IMG/VR virus record: IMGVR_UViG_3300027365_000686
Coordinates: 1-23,175 of that record
Strand: one strand, 5' to 3'
Origin: a virus
Length of the DNA: 23,175 nt
The notes beneath the pieces were generated by a model. That model was given only the letters and a program-made list of their open reading frames with translations. It was not told the DNA's origin and did not search any database. How positions within the stretch are numbered: the stretch's first letter is position 1; every line of letters starts with the position of its first letter. This document shows, in pieces, positions 1 to 23,175 of the stretch. The position numbers and the translations under genes were made by a program.

Positions 1-1755
1 GCGGTGGCCACCGCGCTGGACATCGAGTCCGACTACCAGTGGCGCTACCGCGACATCACCGCCCTGGACGAAGCCGGGCAGTGGTCGCAGCCCACTACCT
101 TCACCACGGCCAGCGTGTACATCGCCACGCCGTCGGTCACCAGCCCCGCCGACGGCGCGACCGACATCAGCGAGACCCCGACGCTGACCTCCAGCGCCTT
201 CACCGTCTCGCCCGGCACGGAATCGGATACCCATGTCGCCAGCTCCTGGCGGATCCGTGACGTCAACGGCAACGTGGTCTGGGAGTCCCTCGAGGACGCC
301 GGCAACCTGACATCGATCCAGGTGCCGAAGAACGTGCTGCAGGAAGGCGGGCGCGACTACACCGTCGAGGTTCGCCATCACGGCCAGCTCTACGGCGCCT
401 CGGCCTGGTCGGCCAAGGTCGGCTTCACCACCGCCGTGCGCTTCGCCGCCGACGTCGGTACCGCCGGCTCCCAGGGCTTCGGCGTGGGTGTCTACCCCGA
501 GACGCTGCCGGCCGGGTTCTCGACAATGGCCGGCTACAACGATCCAGCCAGCGACAACTACGGCAACTACCAGTACCAGGACGGCTCGGTGATGGTGTTC
601 GTGCCGGCGTTCTACTATCGCATCGGCAGCCCCAACAGCCCGCGCTATGGCGATTACGGGGCCAACGCCATCGACATCGTCAGCGCCGGCACCTACGCCG
701 ATCGCACCACGGCGGCGGCGGACGGCTATGCCCTGCACCGCGCCTTCATCGACGGCGGCCAGATCAAGACCGGGTTCTTCTACGACAAGTACCTGGCCTC
801 GAAGAACGGCACCGATACCTGCCGCTCGGTGAAGAACGGCGTACCGATCTCGCTGACCAGCCAGACCGGCTACACCAGCTCGGACGGCATGACCGGCTGC
901 ACCGGCATCTACGCCGACTCGGTGGTACTGGCTCGCGCCCGGGGCGCCGGCTTCAACGTCGCCAGCGTCTTCCAGGTCAGCGCCGTGGCGCTGCTGTCGC
1001 TGGCCCACGCCCAGGCCGCCACCGGCACCGTCAACTGCGCCTGGTACGACGGCACCGGCGCCGCCAACTTCCCCAAGGGCTGCAACGACGGTTCGCTGGG
1101 CGACAACGACGATGCCGAAGTCGTCTACGTCTCGGCCGGCGACAGCGGCAACGCCAACAAGCCGCAGACCGGCAGCGCCGCGCCCTTCGCCAAGACCACC
1201 CACAACGGCCAGGCCTGCGGCATCGCCGACGTCAACGGCGCCATGTGGCAGGTCGCGCTGGGCATCACCACTCCGGGCAGCTCCGCCACCTCGACGACCG
1301 TCGTCAGCAACGGCGACTGCTACGTGCTCAAGGAGAGCGTCGCGCTGGCCGACCTTACCGGCGGCTACGGCGGCGCCACCGATGCCTGGGGCGATGCCAC
1401 GGCCCTGTCGGCCAACTACGACGCCCAGGCCGGCATCCTGCCGTGGGGCTCGACCACCGGGGCGGTGTATTTCGGCAACGGCGCCAACCAGGTGTTCAGT
1501 GAGGCCACCGACGGCCAGGACTGGCTGCGCACCGCCTGCGGCATTCAGCAGGACACGGCCGCGATGAGCGCTGCCGGTACCAACCTGTTCGGCGCCGACT
1601 ACTGCTACCAGTACAACCGCGAGAATCTCTTCGTGATGACGGCCGGCTACTGGAGCAACGCGTCCGATGCCGGCGTGTTCAGCCGCAACTGGTACTACCA
1701 CCGCGCGAACTACAGCAACGGCGTGTCGTTCCGCGCCTCGGCCTATGGCCTGTAA
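1..1755 (+). CDS. DGR target protein: phage tail fibre/adhesin with FN3-like repeats and C-type-lectin-fold variable tip (5' partial)
   Basis: This is the probable receptor-binding tail fibre that the DGR diversifies. The frame is open at base 1, so the N-terminus lies outside the window. Residue numbers here count from the GTG at 4. Residues 1-145 look like fibronectin-III-type beta modules (WRYRD near 12, TFTTA and GFTTA module ends). Residues about 150-583 resemble the FGE-sulfatase/C-type-lectin fold of known DGR targets, with DVNGAMWQ near 408 and a C-terminal GVSFRAS motif. The last 42 residues are encoded by VR. Nine codons differ from the template: Y549, S560, Y564, Y565, H566, A568, Y570, G573 and A580. 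The surface-exposed lectin loop would contact the host receptor. The gene sits where P2 has fibre gene H, directly upstream of avd. The fold assignment comes from motifs and DGR context. The direct DNA evidence is the VR. Confidence 0.88.
   Translation, partial: AVATALDIESDYQWRYRDITALDEAGQWSQPTTFTTASVYIATPSVTSPADGATDISETPTLTSSAFTVSPGTESDTHVASSWRIRDVNGNVVWESLEDAGNLTSIQVPKNVLQEGGRDYTVEVRHHGQLYGASAWSAKVGFTTAVRFAADVGTAGSQGFGVGVYPETLPAGFSTMAGYNDPASDNYGNYQYQDGSVMVFVPAFYYRIGSPNSPRYGDYGANAIDIVSAGTYADRTTAAADGYALHRAFIDGGQIKTGFFYDKYLASKNGTDTCRSVKNGVPISLTSQTGYTSSDGMTGCTGIYADSVVLARARGAGFNVASVFQVSAVALLSLAHAQAATGTVNCAWYDGTGAANFPKGCNDGSLGDNDDAEVVYVSAGDSGNANKPQTGSAAPFAKTTHNGQACGIADVNGAMWQVALGITTPGSSATSTTVVSNGDCYVLKESVALADLTGGYGGATDAWGDATALSANYDAQAGILPWGSTTGAVYFGNGANQVFSEATDGQDWLRTACGIQQDTAAMSAAGTNLFGADYCYQYNRENLFVMTAGYWSNASDAGVFSRNWYYHRANYSNGVSFRASAYGL
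1626..1746 (+). repeat. DGR variable repeat (VR)
   Basis: This 121-bp segment at the 3' end of the fibre gene aligns without gaps to 2227-2347 at an offset of 601. Mismatches are at 1648, 1682, 1693, 1696, 1699, 1705, 1711, 1720, 1721 and 1742. Every one corresponds to A in the template: four became T, four became G and two became C. All non-A template positions are identical. The A-free stretch 1723-1741 near the 3' end is the likely core of the initiation-of-homing region. Confidence 0.97.
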
Positions 1756-1760
1756 CCGGT

Positions 1761-1782
1761 GGGCAGGCCGATAGGCCTGCCC
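1761..1782 (+). other. DGR-type hairpin/cruciform just after VR (may also act as terminator)
   Basis: GGGCAGGCC (1761-1769) and GGCCTGCCC (1774-1782) form a perfect 9-bp GC-rich stem with a GATA tetraloop, 14 nt after the end of VR and 6 nt after the fibre stop codon. Other DGRs, notably Bordetella phage BPP-1, need a short hairpin with a 4-nt loop just downstream of VR for efficient retrohoming. No matching hairpin follows TR. Only a weak T run follows, so a purely terminator role is less convincing. Confidence 0.7.
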
Positions 1783-1809
1783 CTTTCACCCGCATGACAG
1801 GGAGTCGAC

Positions 1810-2220
1810 ATGCCCCAGGCCAATCCCAAGGCGGCGATCTTTTTCAACTGCCGGGAGATGATCAAGCTGGCCAATGTCTATTTGAACCACTTCCCGCGCC
1901 ACGAGAAGTACGCCCTGGCCCAGGAAATCCGCTGCGCGGCCTACGACGTGTATGCGCTGCTGGTCGAGTGCCAGAAGCGCTATCACAACAAGACCAGCCT
2001 CACCCGGCTGGACGTGCGCCACGAGCAGCTGCGCATGCTGGTCAACCTGGCCTGGGAACTGGGGTATTTCGACTACCACGACAACAAGCGCGGCCGCTCA
2101 CCGGCGGAAGCGCAGCGCCGATACACCGCCCTCTCGGTCAGGATCAACGAGCTGGGCGCCCAGATCGGCGGATGGATTCGCGACCTGCGCAGGCAGGCCG
2201 CCAATGGGGCGGGCACTTGA
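1810..2220 (+). CDS. avd: Avd, DGR accessory variability determinant
   Basis: Avd is a small basic four-helix-bundle protein. In characterised DGRs it forms a pentamer that binds the reverse transcriptase and template RNA and is needed for mutagenic cDNA synthesis. This 136-aa product has the usual Avd size. It is almost entirely helical by inspection and rich in Arg/Lys/His, with an N-terminal AAIFFNCREMIKLAN helix and a C-terminal helix ending WIRDLRRQAA. The start is supported by AGGGAG at 1799-1804, 5 nt upstream. It lies between the fibre gene and TR, the same order as mtd-avd-TR-brt in BPP-1. The TR begins 7 nt after its stop. The identification rests on size, composition and position; the neighbouring TR and RT make it secure. 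Confidence 0.9.
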   Translation: MPQANPKAAIFFNCREMIKLANVYLNHFPRHEKYALAQEIRCAAYDVYALLVECQKRYHNKTSLTRLDVRHEQLRMLVNLAWELGYFDYHDNKRGRSPAEAQRRYTALSVRINELGAQIGGWIRDLRRQAANGAGT

Positions 2221-2226
2221 AATGCC

Positions 2227-2347
2227 TCTCTTCGTGATGACGGCCGGCAACTGGAGCAACGCGTCCGATGCCGGCGTGTTCAACCGCAACTGGAACAACA
2301 ACCGCACGAACAACAGCAACAACGTGTCGTTCCGCGCCTCGGACTAT
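2227..2347 (+). repeat. DGR template repeat (TR)
   Basis: This 121-bp template is the partner of VR 1626-1746. It is enriched in AAC codons when read in the VR frame (11 AAC codons, seven substituted in VR). This is the usual DGR design, because AAC can mutate to many residues but never to a stop codon. By hand count about 30 of the 121 bases are A, and 10 of these are changed in VR. It lies between avd and RT. It would be transcribed and reverse-transcribed with random misincorporation opposite A. Confidence 0.97.
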
Positions 2348-2461
2348 CTCTCTATTCCTGATATCCCGCGTGGGAAGACTGGAGACATAGGGAGTGACCC
2401 GTCCCGCCGCTCGGCGAAATCCGCGGGCCTCTGCGTTTCAGTACCAACAGGGACCATCCAC
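2348..2461 (+). other. TR-RT spacer of the DGR RNA
   Basis: This is a 114-nt segment between the end of TR and the RT start codon. In BPP-1 the equivalent spacer is part of the structured template RNA and is required for cDNA priming. I see short complementary blocks (CCC/GGG near 2363-2373) but no long perfect stem. The Shine-Dalgarno-like AGGGA for the RT is at 2449-2453, 8 nt before the ATG. Confidence 0.6.
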
Positions 2462-3472
2462 ATGCCCAAACGCTATTCCGGGCTCTTCGAGCAGTGCTTC
2501 ACCCTGGAGGCGCTGTTCGCGGCCTACGAGACCGCCCGGCGCGGCAAGCGCAAGACCGCCACGGTGATGCGCTTCGAGCGCGACCTGGGCGCCAACCTGC
2601 AGGCGCTGCACGACGAGCTGCACGCCGGCAGCTACGCGCCGCAGCCCTACCGGCGCTTCGAAGTGGTGCGCAACAAGCGGCGCACCATCAACGCCCCGGC
2701 GTTTCGCGACGTGATCGTCCAGCACGCCATCTACGCCGTGATCCAGCCGATCTTCGACCGTTCGTTCATCCACGACAGCCACGGCTGCCGCAAGAACAAG
2801 GGCACCCACAGCGCGAGCGATCGCGCCCAGCGCTTCCTGCGGCAGTCGCCGCGGGGCAGCTACACCCTGCAGCTCGACATCCGGCGGTTCTACTACCGCA
2901 TCGACCGGGCGATCCTGCGCCGCCTGGTCGCCCGCAAGATCAAGGACCGCCGCCTGCTCGCGCTGATGATGCGCTTCGCCGAGCACGACGAGCCGCTCGG
3001 CGTGCCGATCGGCAATCTGCTCTCGCAGATCTTCGCGCTGATCTATCTGAACCCGCTGGATCACTTCATCAAGCGCGAGCTCAAGGTGAAGCGCTACGTG
3101 CGCTACGTCGACGACTTCATCCTCTTCGGGCTGACCCGCGACGCCGCCTGTGAGCTGCGCGACCGGATCCGCGACTGGCTGGCCGAGCACCTGCGCCTGG
3201 AGTTCTCGCGCTGGACCATCGCCCCGGTCAGCCGCGGGGTCAACTTCGTTGGCTTTCGCACCTGGCGCACCACGCGCTTCGTGCGCAAGCACAGCATGCA
3301 CAGCTTCTCGAAGAGCCTGAGACGCGGCGACGTCCGCAGCCTCAACGCCATCATGGGCCATGCCGCCGCCACCGCCACGCTGGCCCACTTCAACCGCAGG
3401 ATCGCCGCCGAGCGGCGCGACCTGATACCGCAACTGCCACTCTACGAGGTGCGCCATGCCCACGCTGTATAA
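2462..3472 (+). CDS. DGR reverse transcriptase
   Basis: This 336-aa RNA-dependent DNA polymerase copies the TR transcript and introduces errors at template adenines. Visible motifs in order are: a palm aspartate in LDIRRFYYRI (D139), the DGR-specific IGNLLSQ motif at 183-189 (group II intron and retron RTs have a QGxxxSP-type motif there), the catalytic YVDD at 215-218, and NFVGF at 261-265. There is no maturase or endonuclease domain, as expected for a DGR RT. The ATG at 2462 is chosen for its AGGGA Shine-Dalgarno sequence at 8-nt spacing and normal family length. The frame is open further upstream through TR to an ATG at 2222. The 3' end overlaps the next gene by 17 bp. All catalytic residues are present, so the enzyme looks intact. 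Confidence 0.97.
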   Translation: MPKRYSGLFEQCFTLEALFAAYETARRGKRKTATVMRFERDLGANLQALHDELHAGSYAPQPYRRFEVVRNKRRTINAPAFRDVIVQHAIYAVIQPIFDRSFIHDSHGCRKNKGTHSASDRAQRFLRQSPRGSYTLQLDIRRFYYRIDRAILRRLVARKIKDRRLLALMMRFAEHDEPLGVPIGNLLSQIFALIYLNPLDHFIKRELKVKRYVRYVDDFILFGLTRDAACELRDRIRDWLAEHLRLEFSRWTIAPVSRGVNFVGFRTWRTTRFVRKHSMHSFSKSLRRGDVRSLNAIMGHAAATATLAHFNRRIAAERRDLIPQLPLYEVRHAHAV

Positions 3473-4040
3473 ATTCCAGCGCTACATCGAGACCGGACCC
3501 AATGGTGTCACGCTCGATTTCCGCAACGTCCAGGACGACACGGCCACGCCCGCCACACTGCTCGCCGAGATCGACGGCTGGCGGTACGTCAGCGTCCCCG
3601 ACGCCACCGTGATGCCCGACCAGCCCGACGAGATCTCCTGGCAGGCCGTCACGCCCACCCCCGAGCTGATCGACCAGCTCAAGCGCTGCCAGCCGGTGAA
3701 CGTCGCCAAGCACGCCGTCCGCCAGCGCATCGAGCTCGAGGTGGGCGACCTGCACGACCTGGTCGCCGACAGCATGCGCCTGTGCGAGTTCGCCATCGCC
3801 CTGAGCGTGCGCGTCAGTCACGAGGTGCTCACCAGCGAACCCATGGACGCCACGCTGCGCGAGGCCTACACCGCCCGCGTCACCACCGTGAAGGACGCCA
3901 TGGACAGCGGCGACCTGGTCGTGCGCAGCGACATCGAGGACCCGACCACCATGATGTCGCGGCTGATGGAGCGCTACACCACCATCACCCGCCTGATCGC
4001 CGACCACTACCAGCCGACGATCGACGAACTGCTCCCCTGA
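3456..4040 (+). CDS. Probable tail-fibre assembly chaperone (P2 gpG position), function not certain
   Basis: This is a 194-aa soluble protein. A short N-terminal region of about 75 residues has aromatic and proline turns (DGWRYVSV, EISWQAV). It is followed by a long helical region from about 80 to 190. It starts within the last 17 bp of the RT gene with GAGG a few bases upstream, so it is probably translationally coupled to it. It occupies the position of P2 gene G, between the fibre gene and the sheath gene. A fibre-folding chaperone matched to the variable fibre is the natural guess. I do not recognise a diagnostic family motif, so the function rests on position. A DGR-associated accessory protein is the main alternative. 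Confidence 0.6.
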   Translation: MPTLYKFQRYIETGPNGVTLDFRNVQDDTATPATLLAEIDGWRYVSVPDATVMPDQPDEISWQAVTPTPELIDQLKRCQPVNVAKHAVRQRIELEVGDLHDLVADSMRLCEFAIALSVRVSHEVLTSEPMDATLREAYTARVTTVKDAMDSGDLVVRSDIEDPTTMMSRLMERYTTITRLIADHYQPTIDELLP

Positions 4041-4190: not shown

Positions 4191-5717
4191 ATGGCACTCG
4201 ATCAATATCACCACGGCGTGCGCGTCAAGGAGGTCAACGACGGCACGCGGACCATTCGCACCGTCTCGACCGCGATCATCGGCATCGTCTGCACCGCGCC
4301 GGATGCCGACCCCGGTACCGCCGCCGCGCTGACCCTCTCGCTCACCGCCGCCGATACCGGCGTGGTCTACACCGCCGCCGCGACCGGCACGGCCGGCAAC
4401 AAGATCCGCATCCGCTACGTCGACCCCGCGGCCAACTCGGCAGCGCTGGCGGTCAGCGTGTCCGGCAAGGACATCACCGTCTCGCTCGCGACCGACATCG
4501 ATGGCGCGATCATTTCCACCGCCGAGGATGTGGTGACCGCGGTCAACGCCGATGCCGCCGCCTCCGCTCTGGTCACCGCGGCGCTGGCCGACGGCGAAAC
4601 CGGCCTGGGCGTGCTCGCCGCGCAGGATTTCACCAAGCTGACCGGCGGCGTGGACGAGGCGTTCCCGCTCAACCAGCCCGCCCTGGTCACCAACGTCGAC
4701 ACGGCCATCGGCAAGGCCGGCACCACCGGCACGTTGAAAGACACGCTCACCACCATCGGCTACCAGTCCAAGCCGATCATCGTCGTGGTACGCGTCGCCG
4801 AGGGCAGCACGGCGGAAGAGACCACCAGTAACGTTATCGGCACCACCACGGCATCCGGCCAGCGCACCGGCCTGCAGGCGCTGCTCACCGCGAAACAGAA
4901 GCTCGGCGTCACGCCGCGCATCATCGGCGTACCGGCACTGGACACCCAGCCGGTGGCCACCGCCATGGTGCCGATCCTCCAGCAGCTGCGCGCCTTCGGC
5001 TACATCTACGCCCACGACTGCGCGACCATCACCGACGTCACCGCCTACCGCGACCAGTTCGGCGCCCGCGAGCTGATGGTGATCTGGCCGCAGTTCGAGG
5101 CCTTCGACACCGACGACGCCGCCACCGTCTCGGTCAGCCCCATCGCCGTCGCCCTGGGGATGCGCGCCTACCTGGACGAAACCGTCGGCTGGCACAAGAC
5201 CCTCTCCAACGTCGTGGTCAACGGCGTCACCGGCATCGACCGCGACGTGTTCTGGGATCTGCAATCACCCAACACCGACGCCGGGATCCTCAACGCCGCC
5301 GACGTTACCACGCTGATCAACCAGGGCGGCTACCGCTTCTGGGGCTCGCGCACCTGTGCCGGCCCGCAGTCACTGTTCCCGTTCGAGAACTACACCCGCA
5401 CCGCGCAGATCCTCGCCGACACCATCGCCGAGGCGCACCTCTGGGCCGTGGACAAGCCGCTACACGCCTCGCTGGCCCGCGACATCATCGAGGGCATCAA
5501 CGCCAAGTTCGCCGAGCTCAAGGCGCTGCGCCTGATCGTCGACGGCCAAGCCTGGCTGAACGAGGAGCTCAACACCCAGGAGTCCCTGAAGGCCGGCAAG
5601 CTGCGCATCGATTACGACTACACGCCGGTACCGCCCCTGGAAGACCTCGGGTTCCAGCAGCGCATCACCGACAGCTACCTAGCCGACTTCGCCGAGCGCG
5701 TCGCCGCGACCGCCTGA
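4191..5717 (+). CDS. FI: Contractile tail sheath protein (P2 FI family) with N-terminal insertion domain
   Basis: This is the structural subunit of the contractile tail sheath, which polymerises around the tube. The product is 508 aa, about 110 residues longer than P2 FI (about 396). The N-terminus (YHHGVRVKEVNDGTRTIRTV) and the C-terminal two thirds follow the FI pattern, including FWGSRTC, FENYTR and a C-terminal IDYDYTPVPPLEDL strand. The extra length is a Thr/Ala/Val-rich beta domain at about residues 42-155, inserted after TAPDADPGT and ending at FTKLTGGVDE. Such domains decorate the outer sheath surface in other phages. GGAG lies just upstream of the ATG. It is the first gene of the tail operon and is followed 16 nt later by the tube gene. 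Confidence 0.96.
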   Translation: MALDQYHHGVRVKEVNDGTRTIRTVSTAIIGIVCTAPDADPGTAAALTLSLTAADTGVVYTAAATGTAGNKIRIRYVDPAANSAALAVSVSGKDITVSLATDIDGAIISTAEDVVTAVNADAAASALVTAALADGETGLGVLAAQDFTKLTGGVDEAFPLNQPALVTNVDTAIGKAGTTGTLKDTLTTIGYQSKPIIVVVRVAEGSTAEETTSNVIGTTTASGQRTGLQALLTAKQKLGVTPRIIGVPALDTQPVATAMVPILQQLRAFGYIYAHDCATITDVTAYRDQFGARELMVIWPQFEAFDTDDAATVSVSPIAVALGMRAYLDETVGWHKTLSNVVVNGVTGIDRDVFWDLQSPNTDAGILNAADVTTLINQGGYRFWGSRTCAGPQSLFPFENYTRTAQILADTIAEAHLWAVDKPLHASLARDIIEGINAKFAELKALRLIVDGQAWLNEELNTQESLKAGKLRIDYDYTPVPPLEDLGFQQRITDSYLADFAERVAATA

Positions 5718-5733
5718 CAGGAGACACTGATCC

Positions 5734-6246
5734 ATGGCACTCCCCAAGAAGCTCAAGGACTTGAATCTGTTCTCTAACGGGGACAGCTGGCAAGGCATCA
5801 TCCAGTCCGTCACGTTGCCCACCCTCACCCGCAAGATCGAGGAATGGCGCGGCGGCGGCATGGACGGCACCGTCGGCATCGACATGGGCATGGACGGCCT
5901 GATGACCTGCCAGTGGACCGTCGGCGGGCTCGTGGAAAGCATCTTCGACAATTTCGGCTCGAGCCGCATCGATGCCGAGCTGCTGCGCATGACCGGCAGC
6001 TACGAGCGCGACGACGTCGACGAGGCCTCGGCAGTCGAGGTCGTGATGCGCGGCCGTCACACCGAGATCGACATGGGCGACGCCCAGGCCGGCGAGAACA
6101 CCGAGCACCAGGTCACTTCGACGCTCAGCTACTACAAGCTCTCGATCGACGGCCAGACCAAGATCGAGATCGACATCGTTAACGGCGTGTTCAAGGTCAA
6201 CGGCGAGGACCGGCTCGCCGGCCGCCGCCAGCGCCTGGGCATCTGA
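5734..6246 (+). CDS. FII: Major tail tube protein (P2 FII)
   Basis: This is the tail tube subunit that forms the inner channel for DNA passage under the contracting sheath. The 170-aa length is almost that of P2 FII (about 172). The N-terminal MALPKKLKDLNLF and central GGMDGTVGIDMGMDGL motifs are typical, and the C-terminal half is strand-rich (ending INGVFKVNGEDR-like). An AGGAGA Shine-Dalgarno sequence precedes the ATG. Its place between sheath and gpE follows P2 order exactly. Nothing unusual is seen. Confidence 0.96.
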   Translation: MALPKKLKDLNLFSNGDSWQGIIQSVTLPTLTRKIEEWRGGGMDGTVGIDMGMDGLMTCQWTVGGLVESIFDNFGSSRIDAELLRMTGSYERDDVDEASAVEVVMRGRHTEIDMGDAQAGENTEHQVTSTLSYYKLSIDGQTKIEIDIVNGVFKVNGEDRLAGRRQRLGI

Positions 6247-6284
6247 CCCGCTCACCACTCACCTTTCGATAGGACTCGATCCCC

Positions 6285-6593
6285 ATGACCAAAACCCAAG
6301 TCGCCCAGGCCATCACTGCCACCGTCGTCCTGGACACCCCGATCGCACGCGGCGAGACAACCATCGACGAGCTCACCTTGCGCAAACCGTCCTCCGGCGA
6401 GCTGCGCGGCGTGAACCTCGCCGACGTGCTGCAGATGCAGACCGACGCGCTGATCACCCTGATCCCGCGCCTGTCGAACCCGTCGCTGACCGCCCCCGAG
6501 GTGCGCCAGATGGACCCCGCCGACCTGGTGCAGTGCGGCGGCGAGATCGCCGGTTTTTTGCTCTCGAAGCGGGCCAAGGGCGAGATCGCATAA
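6285..6593 (+). CDS. E: Tail assembly chaperone gpE (zero-frame product)
   Basis: gpE is the short form of the tail assembly chaperone pair found between tube and tape-measure genes in long-tailed phages. It is not part of the virion and helps assemble the tape measure and tube. The product is 102 aa, close to P2 gpE (about 91), with an N-terminal beta region (TATVVLDTPI, IDELTLRKPS) and a helical second half. The start has AGGA about 9 nt upstream. A slippery heptamer near codon 91 allows ribosomes to shift into the E' frame before this stop. Confidence 0.93.
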   Translation: MTKTQVAQAITATVVLDTPIARGETTIDELTLRKPSSGELRGVNLADVLQMQTDALITLIPRLSNPSLTAPEVRQMDPADLVQCGGEIAGFLLSKRAKGEIA

Positions 6594-6763
6594 CGCTCCC
6601 CGCCAGCGTGGAAGAGGCGATGGCGGATCTCGCCATCGTCTTCCACTGGACCCCTGCCGACTGCGCGGATTTCACCCTGCGCGAACTGATGGACTGGCGT
6701 GAACGGGCGCGCAAGCGCGGCGCCACCGACAACCACGGGAACCGCAATGGCGCGAGATCTTAA
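6285..6763 (+). CDS. E': Tail assembly chaperone gpE+E', made by programmed -1 frameshift
   Basis: This is the long form of the chaperone. It shares the first 92 codons with gpE and then continues in the -1 frame from 6560 to a stop at 6761-6763, about 159 aa in total. The extension begins ALEAGQGRD after the shift and ends HGNRNGARS. It has a helical core with FHWTPADCADFTLRELMDWR. The extension has no credible independent start with a Shine-Dalgarno sequence. P2 makes gpE+E' by the same mechanism. In related chaperones the extension contacts the tape-measure protein. Its end overlaps the tape-measure start by 17 bp, as in P2. Confidence 0.85.
6554..6560 (+). promoter_or_regulatory. -1 ribosomal frameshift site T TTT TTG
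   Basis: The heptamer TTTTTTG lies in the correct phase (GGT TTT TTG in the E frame). P- and A-site tRNAs can therefore both re-pair one base upstream, giving entry to the E' frame at 6560. I recall the same heptamer being reported for P2 E/E'. Confidence 0.85.
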
Positions 6764-9700
6764 ACTCCAGGTCATCCTTGACGCCGTCGACAAGGCCACG
6801 GGGCCGCTCAAGAAAATCACCCAGGGCAGCGGCAAGACGGCCGAGGCCCTGAAGGCCAGCAAGCAGGCGCTGCGCGATCTCGAACGCCAGCAACGGGACC
6901 TGAGTTCGTTCCGCAAGCTCAAGGAAGTCACCCGCGAGAACGGCGAGGCCCTGGCCGCCGCCCAGGAACGGCTGCGCAACATGCGCGCCGAGCTCAAGCA
7001 GACCGACGCCCCCACCGAGAAATTCCAGCGTCAGTTCAAACAGGCCAGCGACGAGGTCGACCGCCTGACCGGCAAGATGGGCGAGCAGCGGCGCCGTCTG
7101 GGCGAACTCCGGTCCAGCCTCAAGCAGGGTGGCATCAGCACCGACAACCTCGGTCGCAGCGAGAACCGGCTCGCCGAACAGATACGCGACGCGAATCAGC
7201 AGTTCGACGCGCAAAAGCGGAAGATGGGCGAAGTGGCGCAACAGCAGCGCAGGATGAGCGAGGCTCAGAAGCGCTACCACCGCACCATCGGCCGGGCCAA
7301 CAACATGACCGGCGCGGGTTTCACCGCCGCGGCCACCGGCGGCGCCGCACTCTACGGTGCCGGCCGGCTGCTCGCCCCCGGCATCGACTACGGCGAGACC
7401 ATGAGCAAGGTGCAGGCGCTGACCCGCCTGCAGGCCGACGACCCGCGCCTCGCCGCTCTCAAGCAGCAATCCCGCGACCTTGGCGCGAGTACCGCCTTCA
7501 GTGCCTCCCAGGTCGGCCAGGGCCAGGCATTCCTGGCGATGGCGGGATTCACGCCGGAGGCGATCCGCCAGGCCATTCCGGACATGCTCAACATGGCCCT
7601 GGCCAACGGGTTGGATCTCGGTCGCACCGCCGACATCGGTTCCAACATCCTCTCAGGCTTCGGGCTCGACCCGTCCCAGATGGGCCGCGTCGCCGACGTC
7701 CTCACCGCCACCACCACCCGAGCGAACGTCGATCTCGAGATGCTCGGCGAGTCGATGAAGTACGTCGCCCCGCAGGCCAAGGCCATGGGCCTCTCGCTCG
7801 AGCAGGCCGCGGCGATGGCCGGGCTGCTGGGCAACGTCGGCATCCAGGGCAGCCAGGCCGGCACAACGCTGCGCGCGATGATGACCCGCCTTGCCGCGCC
7901 CACCGGCGCGGCAGCCGGCGCACTCAAGGAGCTCGGCGTCAACGCCAAGGACGCCGACGGCAATCTGCGCGACGTGCCCAAGATCCTCGCCGACGTGGCC
8001 AGGGCGACCCAGGACATGGGTAGCGCCGATCAGGCCAGCTACCTGAAGGCGATTTTCGGCGAGGAACCCGGCGCCGGCATGGCCGAACTGATCGCCCAAC
8101 AGGGTGCCGCCGGCGTCGAGAAGTTCGTCGGCATCCTGCAGAACGCCGCCGGCGAGAGCGGCCGCGTGGCCAAGACCATGGCCGACAACATCGGCGGCGA
8201 TCTCAAGGGCCTGAAGTCGGCCTGGGACGAGGTCGGCATCTCGATCACCGACACCAACAAGGGGCCGCTGCGCGAGCTGATCCAGAACGTCACCGCCATC
8301 ACCCGCGGCATCGGCAACTGGATCAAGGCCAACCCGGAGTTGGCTGGCGATCTGGCGAAGGTCGCCGCCGTGCTGGCTACCGTCGTCGCTGTCGGTGGCA
8401 CGCTGACGGTGATGCTGGCGTCGATTCTGGGGCCGATCGCCGCCATGCGCTACGGCATGACCATACTGGGCATCGGGCTCGGCGGCACCGAAGGGCGAAT
8501 GGCCAAGCTGGCCAAGGCCGTGCTGCCCAGCTTCGGCAAGGCATCCGAAGGCGCGGCCGGAAAGGCCTCCCTACTGAGCCAGGCTTGGCACGGCATGCGC
8601 GGCGCCTGGAAGAAGGCCAATCCACGTACCCTGACGCCCGCAGTCAAGAAGCTCGGCGAATCCCTGTTGCTGCTGCCCGCCAACATCGATGATGCCGTCA
8701 AGGCCACGTGGCGCTGGTCGAAGGTGACTGGAAAGAACGCCACGCAGGCTCTTGGCGGCACCATCAAGAACGTCGGCATACTCGCCCGGAACCGGCTCGT
8801 GGCCTTGAAGCAGGGGTTCATCGGCGCGACCCGGGCCGCCTACCGCTATGTCGCTGTCAATGGCGTGCTGGGTACCGGCATCAACATGACCAGCGGCGCG
8901 TTCAAGGGGCTGCGGGGTATTATCGGCGGCGGCTTGCAAGCGGCGCTGACTGCCACCGGCGGCGCCCTGCGCGTGGTCGGCCAGAGCCTGCTGTTCGTCG
9001 GTCGCGCCGCGCTGCTCAATCCCATCGGCCTGGTGATCACGGCCATCTCCGGGGCCGCCTTGCTGGTCTACAAGTACTGGCAACCGATCAAGGCCTTCTT
9101 CACCGGCTTCTGGCAGGGGCTGCGCGACGGCCTCGCCCCCGTTGCCGAGACGCTGGGACCGGCCTTCACCGCGCTGGGCAGCGCCTTGAAGCCGCTGAAA
9201 CCCATCTGGGATGGCATCGCCGGCGTGCTGGGCACCGTCTGGGGGTGGATCTCGAAGCTGCTGCAACCCGTTCAGTCCACTGCCGAAGACCTGAACGCCG
9301 CGACCTCCGCCGGCGAGAAATTTGGCCACTGGCTGGCCAATGTGATCAACATCATCCCCAACGCCATCGCCGACTTCACCAACTTCGGCGCCAATCTCAT
9401 TGACGGTGTCATCGGTGGAATCAAAGCCAAGTGGCAGGCGCTCAAGGACAGCGTCACAGACATCGCCAGCAGCGTGGCCGGCTGGTTCAAGGACAAGTTG
9501 GGCATCAACTCCCCATCTCGCGTCTTCAAGGCCTACGGCGGCTACACCGTCGATGGCTTGAACGTCGGCCTCGACGCCCAGCGCGACGAACCGGCCAAGC
9601 GTGTCGCCGAGATCGCCAGGCGCGTGCAGCGGGCCGGCGCCGGGCTGGCCCTGGGCGCGGCGGCCCTGCCCGCCGCGGCGATGCCGGGCATCACCCCACA

Positions 9701-9923
9701 GGAGCCGATTCGCTTTGACACCCGGCCGCCGCTGAGCCAGCCCGCCTCGCGCGAGTCAGGCGGTCTCACCATGGGTGACGTCAACATTGAAGTGAACGCC
9801 GCCCCGGGCATGGACGAACGCCAGCTCGCCCAGTACGTCGCCCAGGAAGTGCAGCGCGCCCTGGCCCAAGCCCAGCACGACGCCAGCGCCCGCCGGCGTT
9901 CCTCGCTGCGCGATATCGACTGA
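6747..9923 (+). CDS. T: Tail tape measure protein (P2 gpT)
   Basis: This protein sets tail length and is expelled through the tube at infection, probably helping DNA cross the membrane. Starting at ATG 6747 (MARDLKLQVILDAVDKATG) gives 1058 aa, longer than P2 gpT (about 815), so the tail may be longer. An in-frame ATG at 6699 would add 16 unlikely residues. Residues 1-175 form a long charged coiled coil. A conserved tape-measure domain follows, with GAALYGAGRLLAPGIDYG near 210, the NVGIQGSQAG and TTLRAMMTRLA segments, and a helical repeat region. Hydrophobic segments lie near residues 536-568 and 757-780. The C-terminal FKDKLGINSPSRVF motif near 915 is typical of tape-measure proteins. Its start overlaps the E' stop, implying translational coupling. 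Confidence 0.95.
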   Translation: MARDLKLQVILDAVDKATGPLKKITQGSGKTAEALKASKQALRDLERQQRDLSSFRKLKEVTRENGEALAAAQERLRNMRAELKQTDAPTEKFQRQFKQASDEVDRLTGKMGEQRRRLGELRSSLKQGGISTDNLGRSENRLAEQIRDANQQFDAQKRKMGEVAQQQRRMSEAQKRYHRTIGRANNMTGAGFTAAATGGAALYGAGRLLAPGIDYGETMSKVQALTRLQADDPRLAALKQQSRDLGASTAFSASQVGQGQAFLAMAGFTPEAIRQAIPDMLNMALANGLDLGRTADIGSNILSGFGLDPSQMGRVADVLTATTTRANVDLEMLGESMKYVAPQAKAMGLSLEQAAAMAGLLGNVGIQGSQAGTTLRAMMTRLAAPTGAAAGALKELGVNAKDADGNLRDVPKILADVARATQDMGSADQASYLKAIFGEEPGAGMAELIAQQGAAGVEKFVGILQNAAGESGRVAKTMADNIGGDLKGLKSAWDEVGISITDTNKGPLRELIQNVTAITRGIGNWIKANPELAGDLAKVAAVLATVVAVGGTLTVMLASILGPIAAMRYGMTILGIGLGGTEGRMAKLAKAVLPSFGKASEGAAGKASLLSQAWHGMRGAWKKANPRTLTPAVKKLGESLLLLPANIDDAVKATWRWSKVTGKNATQALGGTIKNVGILARNRLVALKQGFIGATRAAYRYVAVNGVLGTGINMTSGAFKGLRGIIGGGLQAALTATGGALRVVGQSLLFVGRAALLNPIGLVITAISGAALLVYKYWQPIKAFFTGFWQGLRDGLAPVAETLGPAFTALGSALKPLKPIWDGIAGVLGTVWGWISKLLQPVQSTAEDLNAATSAGEKFGHWLANVINIIPNAIADFTNFGANLIDGVIGGIKAKWQALKDSVTDIASSVAGWFKDKLGINSPSRVFKAYGGYTVDGLNVGLDAQRDEPAKRVAEIARRVQRAGAGLALGAAALPAAAMPGITPQEPIRFDTRPPLSQPASRESGGLTMGDVNIEVNAAPGMDERQLAQYVAQEVQRALAQAQHDASARRRSSLRDID

Positions 9924-9934
9924 AGGAGACCGCC

Positions 9935-10378
9935 ATGCTCATGGCCCTGGGAATGTTCGTTTTCGAGGTGAGCAGCGTGCCCTACCAGCAGTTGCAACGC
10001 TCCACCGAGTGGCGCCACGCCTCGCAATCCCGCGTCGGCGACCGGCCGGCGTATCAGTTCGTCGGCCCGGGCGCCGACACCATCACCCTCTCCGGCACCC
10101 TGCTGCCGGAATTCACTGGCGGCCGACTCGACCTGGACGAGATCCGCGACATGGCCGACCAGGGCAAGGCCTGGCCGCTGGTCGAAGGCACCGGGCGGCA
10201 GTACGGGCTCTGGGTGATCACCCGCGTCGATGAGACCTCGAGCTACTTCTTCAGTGACGGCGCCGCGGCGAAGATCGAGTTCACGCTCTCGCTCGAGCAC
10301 GTCGACGACGAACGCACCGACCTGCTCGGCGACCTGACCACCAGCGCCGTGGCACGCCTGGCCGGGGCCTACGCATGA
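9935..10378 (+). CDS. U: Tail completion/terminator protein (P2 gpU)
   Basis: gpU caps the tail tube at its head-proximal end in P2-like phages and stops tube polymerisation. The 147-aa product is slightly shorter than P2 gpU (about 159). It shows the family pattern: N-terminal MALGMFVFEVSSVPYQQLQR, a STEWRHASQSRVG segment, TITLSGTLLPEFTGG in the middle, and a C-terminal FTLSLEHVDDE strand. AAGGAG is 7 nt upstream of the ATG. The stop overlaps the start of gene D in ATGA, so the two are translationally coupled. Confidence 0.94.
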   Translation: MLMALGMFVFEVSSVPYQQLQRSTEWRHASQSRVGDRPAYQFVGPGADTITLSGTLLPEFTGGRLDLDEIRDMADQGKAWPLVEGTGRQYGLWVITRVDETSSYFFSDGAAAKIEFTLSLEHVDDERTDLLGDLTTSAVARLAGAYA

Positions 10379-11385
10379 GCAGCACCAACCGCTATCGACG
10401 GCCCAGCTACCGCATCACCCTGGGCGGCAACGACATCACCCCCCGCATCAACGGCCGGCTGATCAGCCTGCGCCTGCGCACTCAGCGCGGCCTCGAGGCC
10501 GACCAGTTGGACCTCACCCTAAGCGACCACGACGGCGCCCTCGAGCTGCCACGCCGCGGCGTCTCGCTCAGCGTCGCCTACGGCTGGCAAGACGAGGGGC
10601 TGATCAACAAGGGCCTGTTCACGGTGGACGAAGTCCAGCACAGCGGAAGCCCGGACCAGATCACCATCCGCGCGCGCAGCGCCGACATGCGCGGCCAGCT
10701 GCCCGGCAAGCGCACCCAGAGCTGGCACGACATCACCGTCGCCGACATCGTCGATACCATCGCCAAGCGCTACGGCCTCGACCCGGTGATCGGCAACGCC
10801 CTGGGCGGGATCCGCGTTGGCCACATCGACCAGACCGACGAATCGGATCTGAATTTTTTGACGCGGCTGGGGGAGCGTTACGACGCCATCGCCGCCGTGA
10901 AAGCCGGGCGCATGCTGTTCACCCAGGCCGGTGAAGCGCTGACGGCCAGCGGCCTGGCCATGCCCACCATCACCCTCACCCGCCGCGACGGCGACCAGCA
11001 CCGCTACAGCGTCACCGACCGCGAGGCCTACGGCGGCGTGAAGGCCTACTGGAACGACACCAGCGGCGCCGAGCGCAAGATCGTACTGGCCGGCAGCGGC
11101 GACAACGCCAAGCAGTTGCGCCCCACCTACGCAAGCCGAGACGACGCCCTCGCCGCCGCCCAGGCGGAATGGCAGCGCATCCAGCGCGGCCTGGCGGAAT
11201 TCGAGCTGACGATGGCCTACGGCCGGCCGGACATCGTGCCCGAAACACCCCTCGCCGTGAGCGGTTTCAAGCCCGACATCGATGCCACCGCGTGGCTGGT
11301 GACCGAGGTGGAGGACTCGCTCAGCGACAGCGGCTTCGGGACGCGGATGAAGTGTGAGGTGAAGGGAGTCGAGGCCGGCGGCTGA
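10375..11385 (+). CDS. D: Late control/baseplate hub protein gpD
   Basis: gpD belongs to the phage late control gene D family, homologous to the T4 gp27-type baseplate hub, which joins the tail tube to the spike. The 336-aa product contains the typical N-terminal beta barrel (ITLGGNDITPRINGRL), LRTQRGLEADQLDLTLSD, a TVDEVQHSGSPDQITIRARS strand pair, and a second barrel ending SDSGFGTRMKCEVKG. P2 gpD is about 387 aa. It is the last gene of the tail operon, coupled to U by ATGA, and followed 13 nt later by a strong inverted repeat. Confidence 0.95.
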   Translation: MSSTNRYRRPSYRITLGGNDITPRINGRLISLRLRTQRGLEADQLDLTLSDHDGALELPRRGVSLSVAYGWQDEGLINKGLFTVDEVQHSGSPDQITIRARSADMRGQLPGKRTQSWHDITVADIVDTIAKRYGLDPVIGNALGGIRVGHIDQTDESDLNFLTRLGERYDAIAAVKAGRMLFTQAGEALTASGLAMPTITLTRRDGDQHRYSVTDREAYGGVKAYWNDTSGAERKIVLAGSGDNAKQLRPTYASRDDALAAAQAEWQRIQRGLAEFELTMAYGRPDIVPETPLAVSGFKPDIDATAWLVTEVEDSLSDSGFGTRMKCEVKGVEAGG

Positions 11386-21677: not shown

Positions 21678-21967
21678 GCGACCATCAACCCAAGGGCGGG
21701 CCGCTGGCCCGCTCCGCCGCCATGCTCTGCCGTGATGCTCAGTTCTGGCTCTATCTGGATCAAAGAAAACGGTATAAGTTCGGCCTCGCCGAGAGCGACC
21801 TGCCCGACGGCACCCACGGCGAGCAGGATGCCCGCGACTGGATCTGCCGCGCGTGCCGGGTCTCGAGCCGCGCCGAGCTCGACCACGAACCCCAGGCGGC
21901 AGCGACTTTCCGGATGATCCGCAATCGCTTCGCCCGGTGGCGATCCCGACTCAACGCCAACCAATGA
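21674..21967 (+). CDS. Small conserved phage protein, unknown
   Basis: This 97-aa basic protein has LARSAAMLCRDAQFWLYLDQ, WICRACRVSSRAELDHEP and ATFRMIRNRFARWRSRL. Similar-looking small proteins with the SSRAEL motif occur in prophage replication regions, as I remember it, without known function. The ATG overlaps the preceding stop (ATGA), with AAGGAA upstream. It is the last gene before the hairpin preceding the integrase. The Cys pair alone does not establish a zinc finger. Confidence 0.7.
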   Translation: MSDHQPKGGPLARSAAMLCRDAQFWLYLDQRKRYKFGLAESDLPDGTHGEQDARDWICRACRVSSRAELDHEPQAAATFRMIRNRFARWRSRLNANQ

Positions 21968-21973
21968 CCACGC

Positions 21974-21992
21974 CGCCGCCCTCGAGGCGGCG
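21974..21992 (+). terminator. Hairpin between early operon and integrase gene
   Basis: CGCCGCC (21974-21980) pairs with GGCGGCG (21986-21992) around CTCGA, followed by ATTCTTTC. It begins 6 nt after the preceding stop and lies only 8 nt before the integrase Shine-Dalgarno sequence. It could end the early transcript or limit int translation from read-through RNA. Confidence 0.55.
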
Positions 21993-22011
21993 ATTCTTTC
22001 AGGAGGTTCCC

Positions 22012-23175
22012 ATGCCTGATGGCTACGAAGTGCGCGGCAACACCGTGCGTGTCTACTTCCGCTGGAACAATGAACTGTGCCGCGAGGTGATGCCGGGCAA
22101 GGCGACGCCGGCCAACATCGAGCACGCCAAGCGCACGGCGGCGATCATCAACTATGAGATCGACGCCGGCACGTTCGACTACGCCCGGCATTTCCCCAAC
22201 TCGGAGCGCCTGAAGAAGGGCAGCTTCGGCCACTACCTGGACCTGTGGCTGGCGATCAAGAAGAACGAGCTCGCCTACTCCAGTTACCGCGGGTACGAGT
22301 CGAAGGCGGAAACTCACGTCCGCCCCCGTTGGGGCAGCGTCCAGGCCGACAAGATCGATCACATCGAGCTGCAGTCATGGCTCCAGAAGGACCTGGCCAA
22401 GCTGGCCAACAAGACGATCAAGGAGATCGTCAGCATCATGCGCCAGGTTTTCCGGCTCTACTCGACACGCAACAAGACGGCGTTCGACCCGACCTACGGC
22501 ATCAACATTCGCCTGCCCGACGACGAGGATCCCGACCCGTTCACTCAGTCGGAGATCGAGAAGATTCTCACCACGCCGACCAAGCGCGTCCAGGAGCTCA
22601 ACCTGATCAAGTACGCGCTCTATGACGGCCCGCGCACGTCCGAGGTCCAGGCGCTGGCCTGGGAAGACGTGCTCGATATCGAGAAAGGGATCGTGCGCTA
22701 CCGCCGCGCGGTGGTGCGCGGCCGCTTCAAGGTGACAAAGACCAAGCGCTCGACGCGCGTGCACCATCTGCTGAAGCCGGCACGCGAGGCGCTCACGGCC
22801 CAGTGGGAGATGACTGGCCACCTGCCCGCCCAGGTCTACGAGGTCGTCGATCGGGACAACCGCACGGTGCGCAAGGAGCAGCTGCGGCTGGTGTTCCTGA
22901 ATTCACTGTCAGGCAAGCCGTTCTACGAAAACGCGATCCGCGAGCGATTCTGGAAGGTCCACCTGGAGCACGCTGGCGTTCGGTACCGCGGGCCGAATCA
23001 GTGCCGGCACACCTTCATCAGTCAGATGCTGTCGCTTGGTGTGGTGCCTTTGCACTGGATCGCGCAGCACGTTGGCCACGCGACGATCGACATGATTCAG
23101 CGGCGATATGGGAAATGGATCCGGACGGATGGGCAGGACGTGCCGCAGATGATCGAGAAGCTTCTGGATCTATAA
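22012..23175 (+). CDS. int: Tyrosine-recombinase integrase
   Basis: This 387-aa site-specific recombinase inserts and excises the prophage. It has an N-terminal arm-binding region (to about 65), a SAM-like core-binding domain (about 70-155: FGHYLDLWLAIKKNELAYSS) and a catalytic domain. The likely active residues are R208 (GPRTSEVQAL), a lysine near 243-245, R332 and H333 (QCRHTF), H356 (HVGH) and the nucleophile Y366 (QRRYGKW). The first histidine of the usual HxxR box is Asn (N329), as seen in many phage integrases of this type. AGGAGG lies 6 nt before the ATG. The longer open frame upstream overlaps the hairpin and previous gene and is unlikely. The gene ends at the window edge, so attP/attR is presumably just beyond. 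Confidence 0.95.
   Translation: MPDGYEVRGNTVRVYFRWNNELCREVMPGKATPANIEHAKRTAAIINYEIDAGTFDYARHFPNSERLKKGSFGHYLDLWLAIKKNELAYSSYRGYESKAETHVRPRWGSVQADKIDHIELQSWLQKDLAKLANKTIKEIVSIMRQVFRLYSTRNKTAFDPTYGINIRLPDDEDPDPFTQSEIEKILTTPTKRVQELNLIKYALYDGPRTSEVQALAWEDVLDIEKGIVRYRRAVVRGRFKVTKTKRSTRVHHLLKPAREALTAQWEMTGHLPAQVYEVVDRDNRTVRKEQLRLVFLNSLSGKPFYENAIRERFWKVHLEHAGVRYRGPNQCRHTFISQMLSLGVVPLHWIAQHVGHATIDMIQRRYGKWIRTDGQDVPQMIEKLLDL

Follow-up and report, generated by a model that had tools for sequence, protein, structure and literature searches.

An Avd-type diversity-generating retroelement among the P2-like tail genes of a probably temperate phage

The stretch of viral DNA analysed here (the window) comprises 23,175 bases and is a virus record of IMG/VR. 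It very probably carries a functional Avd-type diversity-generating retroelement (DGR), located among the tail genes of a temperate phage of P2 type, a reading to which we give a probability of about 0.95. All parts of the cassette could be located (Table 1), and they lie in the order target-avd-TR-RT known from BPP-1, as a reading of the sequence alone had proposed. By analogy with BPP-1, the reverse transcriptase (RT) and Avd would bind a transcript that contains the 3' end of avd, the template repeat (TR) and a structured spacer, and the RT would produce a cDNA that is miscopied at template adenines. This cDNA would then be swapped in for the variable repeat (VR) at the 3' end of the fibre gene while TR stays unchanged, and an adenine-free IMH block together with a hairpin past the stop codon would guide the transfer. 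The AAC codons of the template would direct the changes to the side of a C-type-lectin domain that binds the ligand, and therefore progeny phages with altered receptor-binding tips would be expected, presumably also at the present day.

Table 1. Features of the DGR cassette and its surroundings in the window
Feature	Position	Strand	Remarks
Target gene, 3' part (584 codons; start codon beyond window)	1..1755	+	gpH-position tail fibre / receptor-binding protein
VR (variable repeat)	1626..1746	+	final 40 codons ahead of target gene end
VR invariant 3' end, IMH-like	1723..1755	+	A-free identity block 1723-1741, fixed C 1742
Hairpin/cruciform GGGCAGGCC-GATA-GGCCTGCCC	1761..1782	+	perfect 9-bp stem, GRNA loop
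avd (accessory variability determinant), 136 aa	1810..2220	+	
TR (template repeat)	2227..2347	+	11 AAC codons in target frame
TR 3' end, IMH*-type	2343..2347	+	GAC where VR has GCC
Conserved spacer-RNA element TGGA..AGGGA..TCCyGC-hairpin-GGCGAAATC..AGTA	2377..2444	+	
DGR reverse transcriptase, 336 aa	2462..3472	+	IGNLLSQ and YVDD
194-aa gene, conserved	3456..4040	+	17-bp overlap with RT stop
P2-like tail module (sheath FI, tube FII, tape measure, gpU, gpD)	4191..11385	+	
Tyrosine integrase	21853..23175	+	final gene of the record

The 5' edge of the record lies inside the target gene and its 3' edge at the stop codon of the integrase gene. The earlier description of the DGR as complete therefore holds for the cassette parts, all of which are present, but not for the target gene, whose 5' end falls outside the 23-kb fragment. 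The order of tail genes is that of P2 (J-I-H-...-FI-FII-...-U-D), with FI, FII, U and D within the window, and a J-like gene, the I gene and a gpH-type N-terminus were found upstream in a relative (L011). The same description had spoken of a P2-like prophage. P2-like status was borne out for the tail module, to which it is confined because the head genes fall beyond the 23,175-base record, whereas a prophage state is suggested by the integrase, repressor-like and Bro-N genes of a record without host flank. Our search for a sigma-70-type promoter near the cassette found none, and the cassette may be transcribed from the late operon. Searches of Pfam, PHROGs, NCBIfam and phage records with the 194-aa gene downstream of the RT gave no match; the gene sits where P2 has gpG and is possibly a fibre-assembly protein. 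The same gene also follows the RT in L003-L007 and in L023.

Realignment of the two repeats recovered the coordinates of the sequence-only reading, with 121 bp each and no gaps (a 92% direct repeat), and when the alignment was extended both ways the homology ended immediately outside 1626 and 1746. TR contains 30 adenines. All ten TR/VR differences fall on these and none on the 91 other bases, with A changed to T in four cases, to G in four and to C in two, and the chance of such a distribution is p = 2.4e-7. The earlier count of ten differences on template adenines was thus correct, but one of them is a fixed mark rather than a diversified site, which leaves nine among the 28 adenines of positions 1-116 (p = 9.1e-7). 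These nine are spread over eight codons, and every altered VR codon is non-synonymous. Our recount of the AAC codons in the target frame also agreed with the earlier one, seven of the eleven being altered.

The fixed mark is the A at TR position 2343, opposite the C at VR position 1742, which gives GAC in TR and GCC in VR. The same two triplets were found in 23/23 related cassettes, which come from phages as well as from several bacterial classes. Since random adenine mutagenesis would vary at this site, we conclude that it is a fixed IMH/IMH* difference and not a product of mutagenesis; it would mark the end of the rewritten tract. Beyond position 1742 in the 3' direction, VR is non-homologous to TR up to and including the stop codon. 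The difference between the IMH of VR and the IMH* of TR by which DGRs are recognised is therefore present in the window.

A genome-contig search for the RT with a single sequence gave no match, and with an alignment it gave 80 loci. For a test of concerted evolution, the TRs of the window and of four relatives (L003, L005, L006 and L007) were aligned and the VRs were carried along. In pairwise comparison of these five loci, the VRs differ at 9-18 of the 23-28 template sites where both have an adenine, and at 0 or 1 of the 59-77 shared template sites with another base. For the window and L003 the values are 12/26 and 0/67 (Fisher 2e-8), for L005 and L006 13/28 and 1/77, and for L006 and L007 18/28 and 0/68. 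The target gene 5' of VR has diverged by 27.7% between the window and L003, and at that rate 0/67 would be expected with a probability of 4e-10. Where the TRs of this pair differ at non-adenine bases, the difference is mirrored in VR in 9/9 cases, and over all ten pairs, which are non-independent, 110/110 such TR differences are mirrored in the respective VR. Because VR variation is confined to adenines and each VR tracks its own TR, VR has been rewritten from TR repeatedly since the lineages split, and homing has been ongoing across the clade in evolutionary time.

A comparison of VRs across relatives had been suggested as a check in the sequence-only reading, and its outcome, variation at adenines and not at the other shared bases, is the one foreseen there. 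The qualification of the system as apparently active is likewise upheld over evolutionary time, but L003 and L004, which come from two metagenomes, have identical VRs and leave the last event undated. A rare non-adenine mismatch between TR and VR was seen in L005 and L007, where the TR codon after TTC (at about 4818-4831) is TAT instead of the AAC of L006, with GCT in both VRs. In these two loci the change in TR seems to be younger than the last rewriting of VR.

The RT and Avd frames are free of stop codons, and both the YVDD and the DGR-type IGNLLSQ motif noted earlier are intact. Among solved structures the best relative of the RT is the BPP-1 RT (8ub7; E = 1.3e-58), and the PHROG reverse transcriptase family was matched at 3e-106. 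In a tree of 34 RTs with group II RTs as outgroup, the window and its viral relatives lie within the set that had been collected as DGR RTs, which also includes BPP-1, ACA1 and Bise; the four group II intron RTs stand apart. This is the DGR grouping that the sequence-only reading called for. R74 and I183 of the RT do not vary among the RTs of the set; in the alignment with bRT they fall opposite R74 and I181, two residues that affect adenine infidelity in bRT. Avd exceeded the cut-off of the Pfam bAvd model (51 bits against 40) and matched PHROG 3206 (Avd; 6e-20), whereas it stayed under the cut-off of the NCBIfam Avd model (70.6 bits against 80). The dN/dS of avd is about 0.1-0.2, and the RT compared with that of L003 has a dN of 0.07 and a dS of 1.0, values that point to strong purifying selection on both genes. 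The RT starts at 2462, and its open frame continues upstream across TR. An open TR that could form an N-terminal extension of the RT is found in the window, L003, L008, L023 and ACA1, but the frame is closed in L005-L007, so we rejected translation of TR as a general feature. Codon 239 of the L006 RT (5001-5717) is an in-frame stop, which means either that the RT was broken recently or that the assembly is wrong there; TR and VR of this locus still differ at adenines only.

We considered whether the repeats could have arisen by plain gene duplication, followed by point mutation or positive selection and without any retrohoming. A direct repeat of 92% identity is what such a history would leave, yet adenine-only change would then be a matter of chance (p = 9e-7), VR mirrors TR at every non-adenine site while the remaining gene is 28% diverged, and RT and Avd genes adjoin the repeats. 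We regard this explanation as extremely improbable, and the adenine-only VR variation among the five loci refutes it. Hardly any more credence can be given to the idea that the RT belongs to a group II intron, a retron or a defence (DRT) system and lies beside the repeat by chance. Its weak matches to group II maturase, Drt3a and retron models would fit this idea, but these NCBIfam matches are far under the cut-offs, the motif reads IGNLLSQ and not QGGPLSP, the tree joins the RT to DGR RTs and Rfam finds no intron or retron RNA. These identities were thus rejected on scores, motif and tree, where the tree bears on group II only, since retron and DRT RTs had no rows in it and were judged by motif and score.

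It is also conceivable, though in our judgement unlikely, that the DGR has recently died, i.e. that the ancestors of this copy homed, the present copy does not, and VR is a fixed final product. The window is a single snapshot, the VR of L006 looks fresh despite the stop codon in its RT, and the VRs of L003 and L004 are the same in both samples, all of which would be compatible with such a loss. Against it, the RT, Avd, TR, IMH block, hairpin and spacer of the window are all intact, purifying selection on RT and Avd is strong, and the 91 non-adenine sites have accumulated no difference between TR and VR.

The target gene, of which 584 aa are encoded in the window as compared with 830-885 aa in homologues, had no match in a Pfam search, and a single-sequence search against solved structures returned only noise (MccB). 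A profile of 24 DGR targets, however, matched TaqVP (5VF4; E 2e-8), a solved DGR variable protein from a Thermus aquaticus prophage (PMC6328139). Using an alignment of 24 sequences, AlphaFold modelled residues 145-584 (the C-terminal 440) with a pLDDT of 86 and a pTM of 0.91, whereas a full-length model from six sequences reached a pLDDT of only 33. In the predicted fold, residues 145-584 make up a C-type-lectin domain of the FGE type, and VR lies at the C-terminal end of this domain. The model resembles TaqVP most (Z 29.2 over 296 residues), followed by Mtd of BPP-1 (Z 12.2), TvpA (Z 11.9) and formylglycine-generating enzymes (Z about 11), and at the level of predicted fold it supports the earlier assignment of VR to the lectin tip of a tail fibre. 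In L011 the N-terminus of the homologue is that of a P2 tail fibre (PF12571), and the gene follows the P2 gpI gene. The targets of L009 and L011 have unrelated fibre N-termini and a variable lectin C-terminus in common, a pattern that suggests modular exchange of the fibre-attachment part.

Two further elements, a hairpin behind VR and a conserved RNA element in the spacer between TR and RT, had been absent from the sequence-only reading. The hairpin begins 14 nt past VR and agrees with those described for phage DGRs by Guo et al., which have GC-rich stems of 7-10 bp, 4-nt GRNA loops and a spacing of 4-34 bp, and which are required for efficient homing in BPP-1 (PMC3240598). In the window and nine relatives the stems are 6-9 bp long, some of the relatives' being one pair below the published range; their sequences differ, and the loops are GATA, GGTA or GGCA.

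The spacer element was found in 27/27 clade cassettes examined (proteobacterial, campylobacterial and phage), about 20-70 nt upstream of the RT. A covariance model (R1), built with Bise left out of the training set and run against 295 kb, matched the window, its near relatives L006, L034 and L035, and phage Bise, and nothing further; BPP-1, ACA1 and the distant DGR-RT loci searched gave no match. In 250 genomes of one order the spacer model had one match, the already known cassette. An Rfam search of the window assigned the element to no family, RF03022 (Phage_DGR) being without a match even at E <= 1, whereas the spacer of BPP-1 matches RF03022 at 104.7 bits. By eye, BPP-1 has the core GTCCTGC..GGCGAA in common with the clade spacer. 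RNAalifold supported pairing for short stretches of the spacer alignment only, because the variable hairpin aligns poorly. In BPP-1 the folded spacer recruits the complex of bRT and Avd and contributes the adenine from which cDNA synthesis is primed (PMC12875486), and by analogy the spacer of the window likely has the same role. We tentatively propose, at somewhat less than even odds, that the clade spacer (TGGA..AGGGA..TCCkGC-[variable hairpin]-GCGAAATC..GTAG) is an RNA class separate from RF03022 that serves as a platform for RT-Avd binding and priming, with GAC (TR)/GCC (VR) as a universal mark of the homing boundary.

DGRs acting on phage tail fibres have been standard knowledge since BPP-1, and our general understanding of them is unchanged by the present case. 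Thousands of metagenomic and viral DGRs have been analysed in large surveys (PMC8144416). The BPP-1 system (mtd-avd-TR-brt) has the gene order, the adenine-specific TR/VR pair, Avd, a GRNA-loop hairpin past VR, a structured spacer between TR and RT and a C-type-lectin target at the tail-fibre tip in common with the window, and the two RTs are 41% identical. BPP-1 is a podophage, however, whereas the window has a myophage tail module of P2 type and a target with TaqVP-like inserts. TaqVP itself, the closest solved structure to the target domain, is only 19% identical to it and comes from a different host. Published DGRs also include those that act on the antireceptor of P2-family phages, namely of Pseudoalteromonas ACA1/ACA2 and VHML-like phages (PMC10612066). 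ACA1/ACA2 resemble the window in the target-avd-TR-RT order, the adenine-specific VR and the GRNA hairpin, but the ACA RT is only 38% identical to that of the window, the VHML-type antireceptor gene is separate from the fibre-attachment gene, and the RT carries the translated TR as an N-terminal extension.

The type of system is therefore already well described, and the additions made here, the clade spacer RNA and the invariant GAC/GCC mark, are modest. They do offer concrete limits for cDNA priming and integration that can be put to the test beyond the BPP-1 model. The window is a well-resolved P2-like case in which every mechanistic part can be read from the sequence, and together with L003 and L005-L007 it forms a small natural series that shows concerted evolution of TR and VR.

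Among annotated phages, Pseudomonas phage Bise (OR683401) has the closest RT (55.6%). Like the window, it has adenine-only TR/VR changes, a gene for an Avd-like four-helix bundle, a GRNA hairpin and the spacer-RNA element of the clade; unlike the window, it has a different tail context and a DNA adenine methylase downstream. Its TR/VR pair (5006-5123 and 5720-5837 of L013) belongs to a DGR that is absent from the annotation of the record, in which a probably spurious minus-strand 'hypothetical protein' (WWQ71694.1) is annotated across TR. A close relative in a cultured bacterium, Ectothiorhodospira mobilis DSM 237 (L023, 5154-7606), has its cassette near prfC and is a possible culture model. 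In Psychrobacter sp. 72-O-c, L030 and L035 lie about 35 kb apart on one contig with equal DGR TR/VR coordinates and counts, and are apparently a duplicated cassette.
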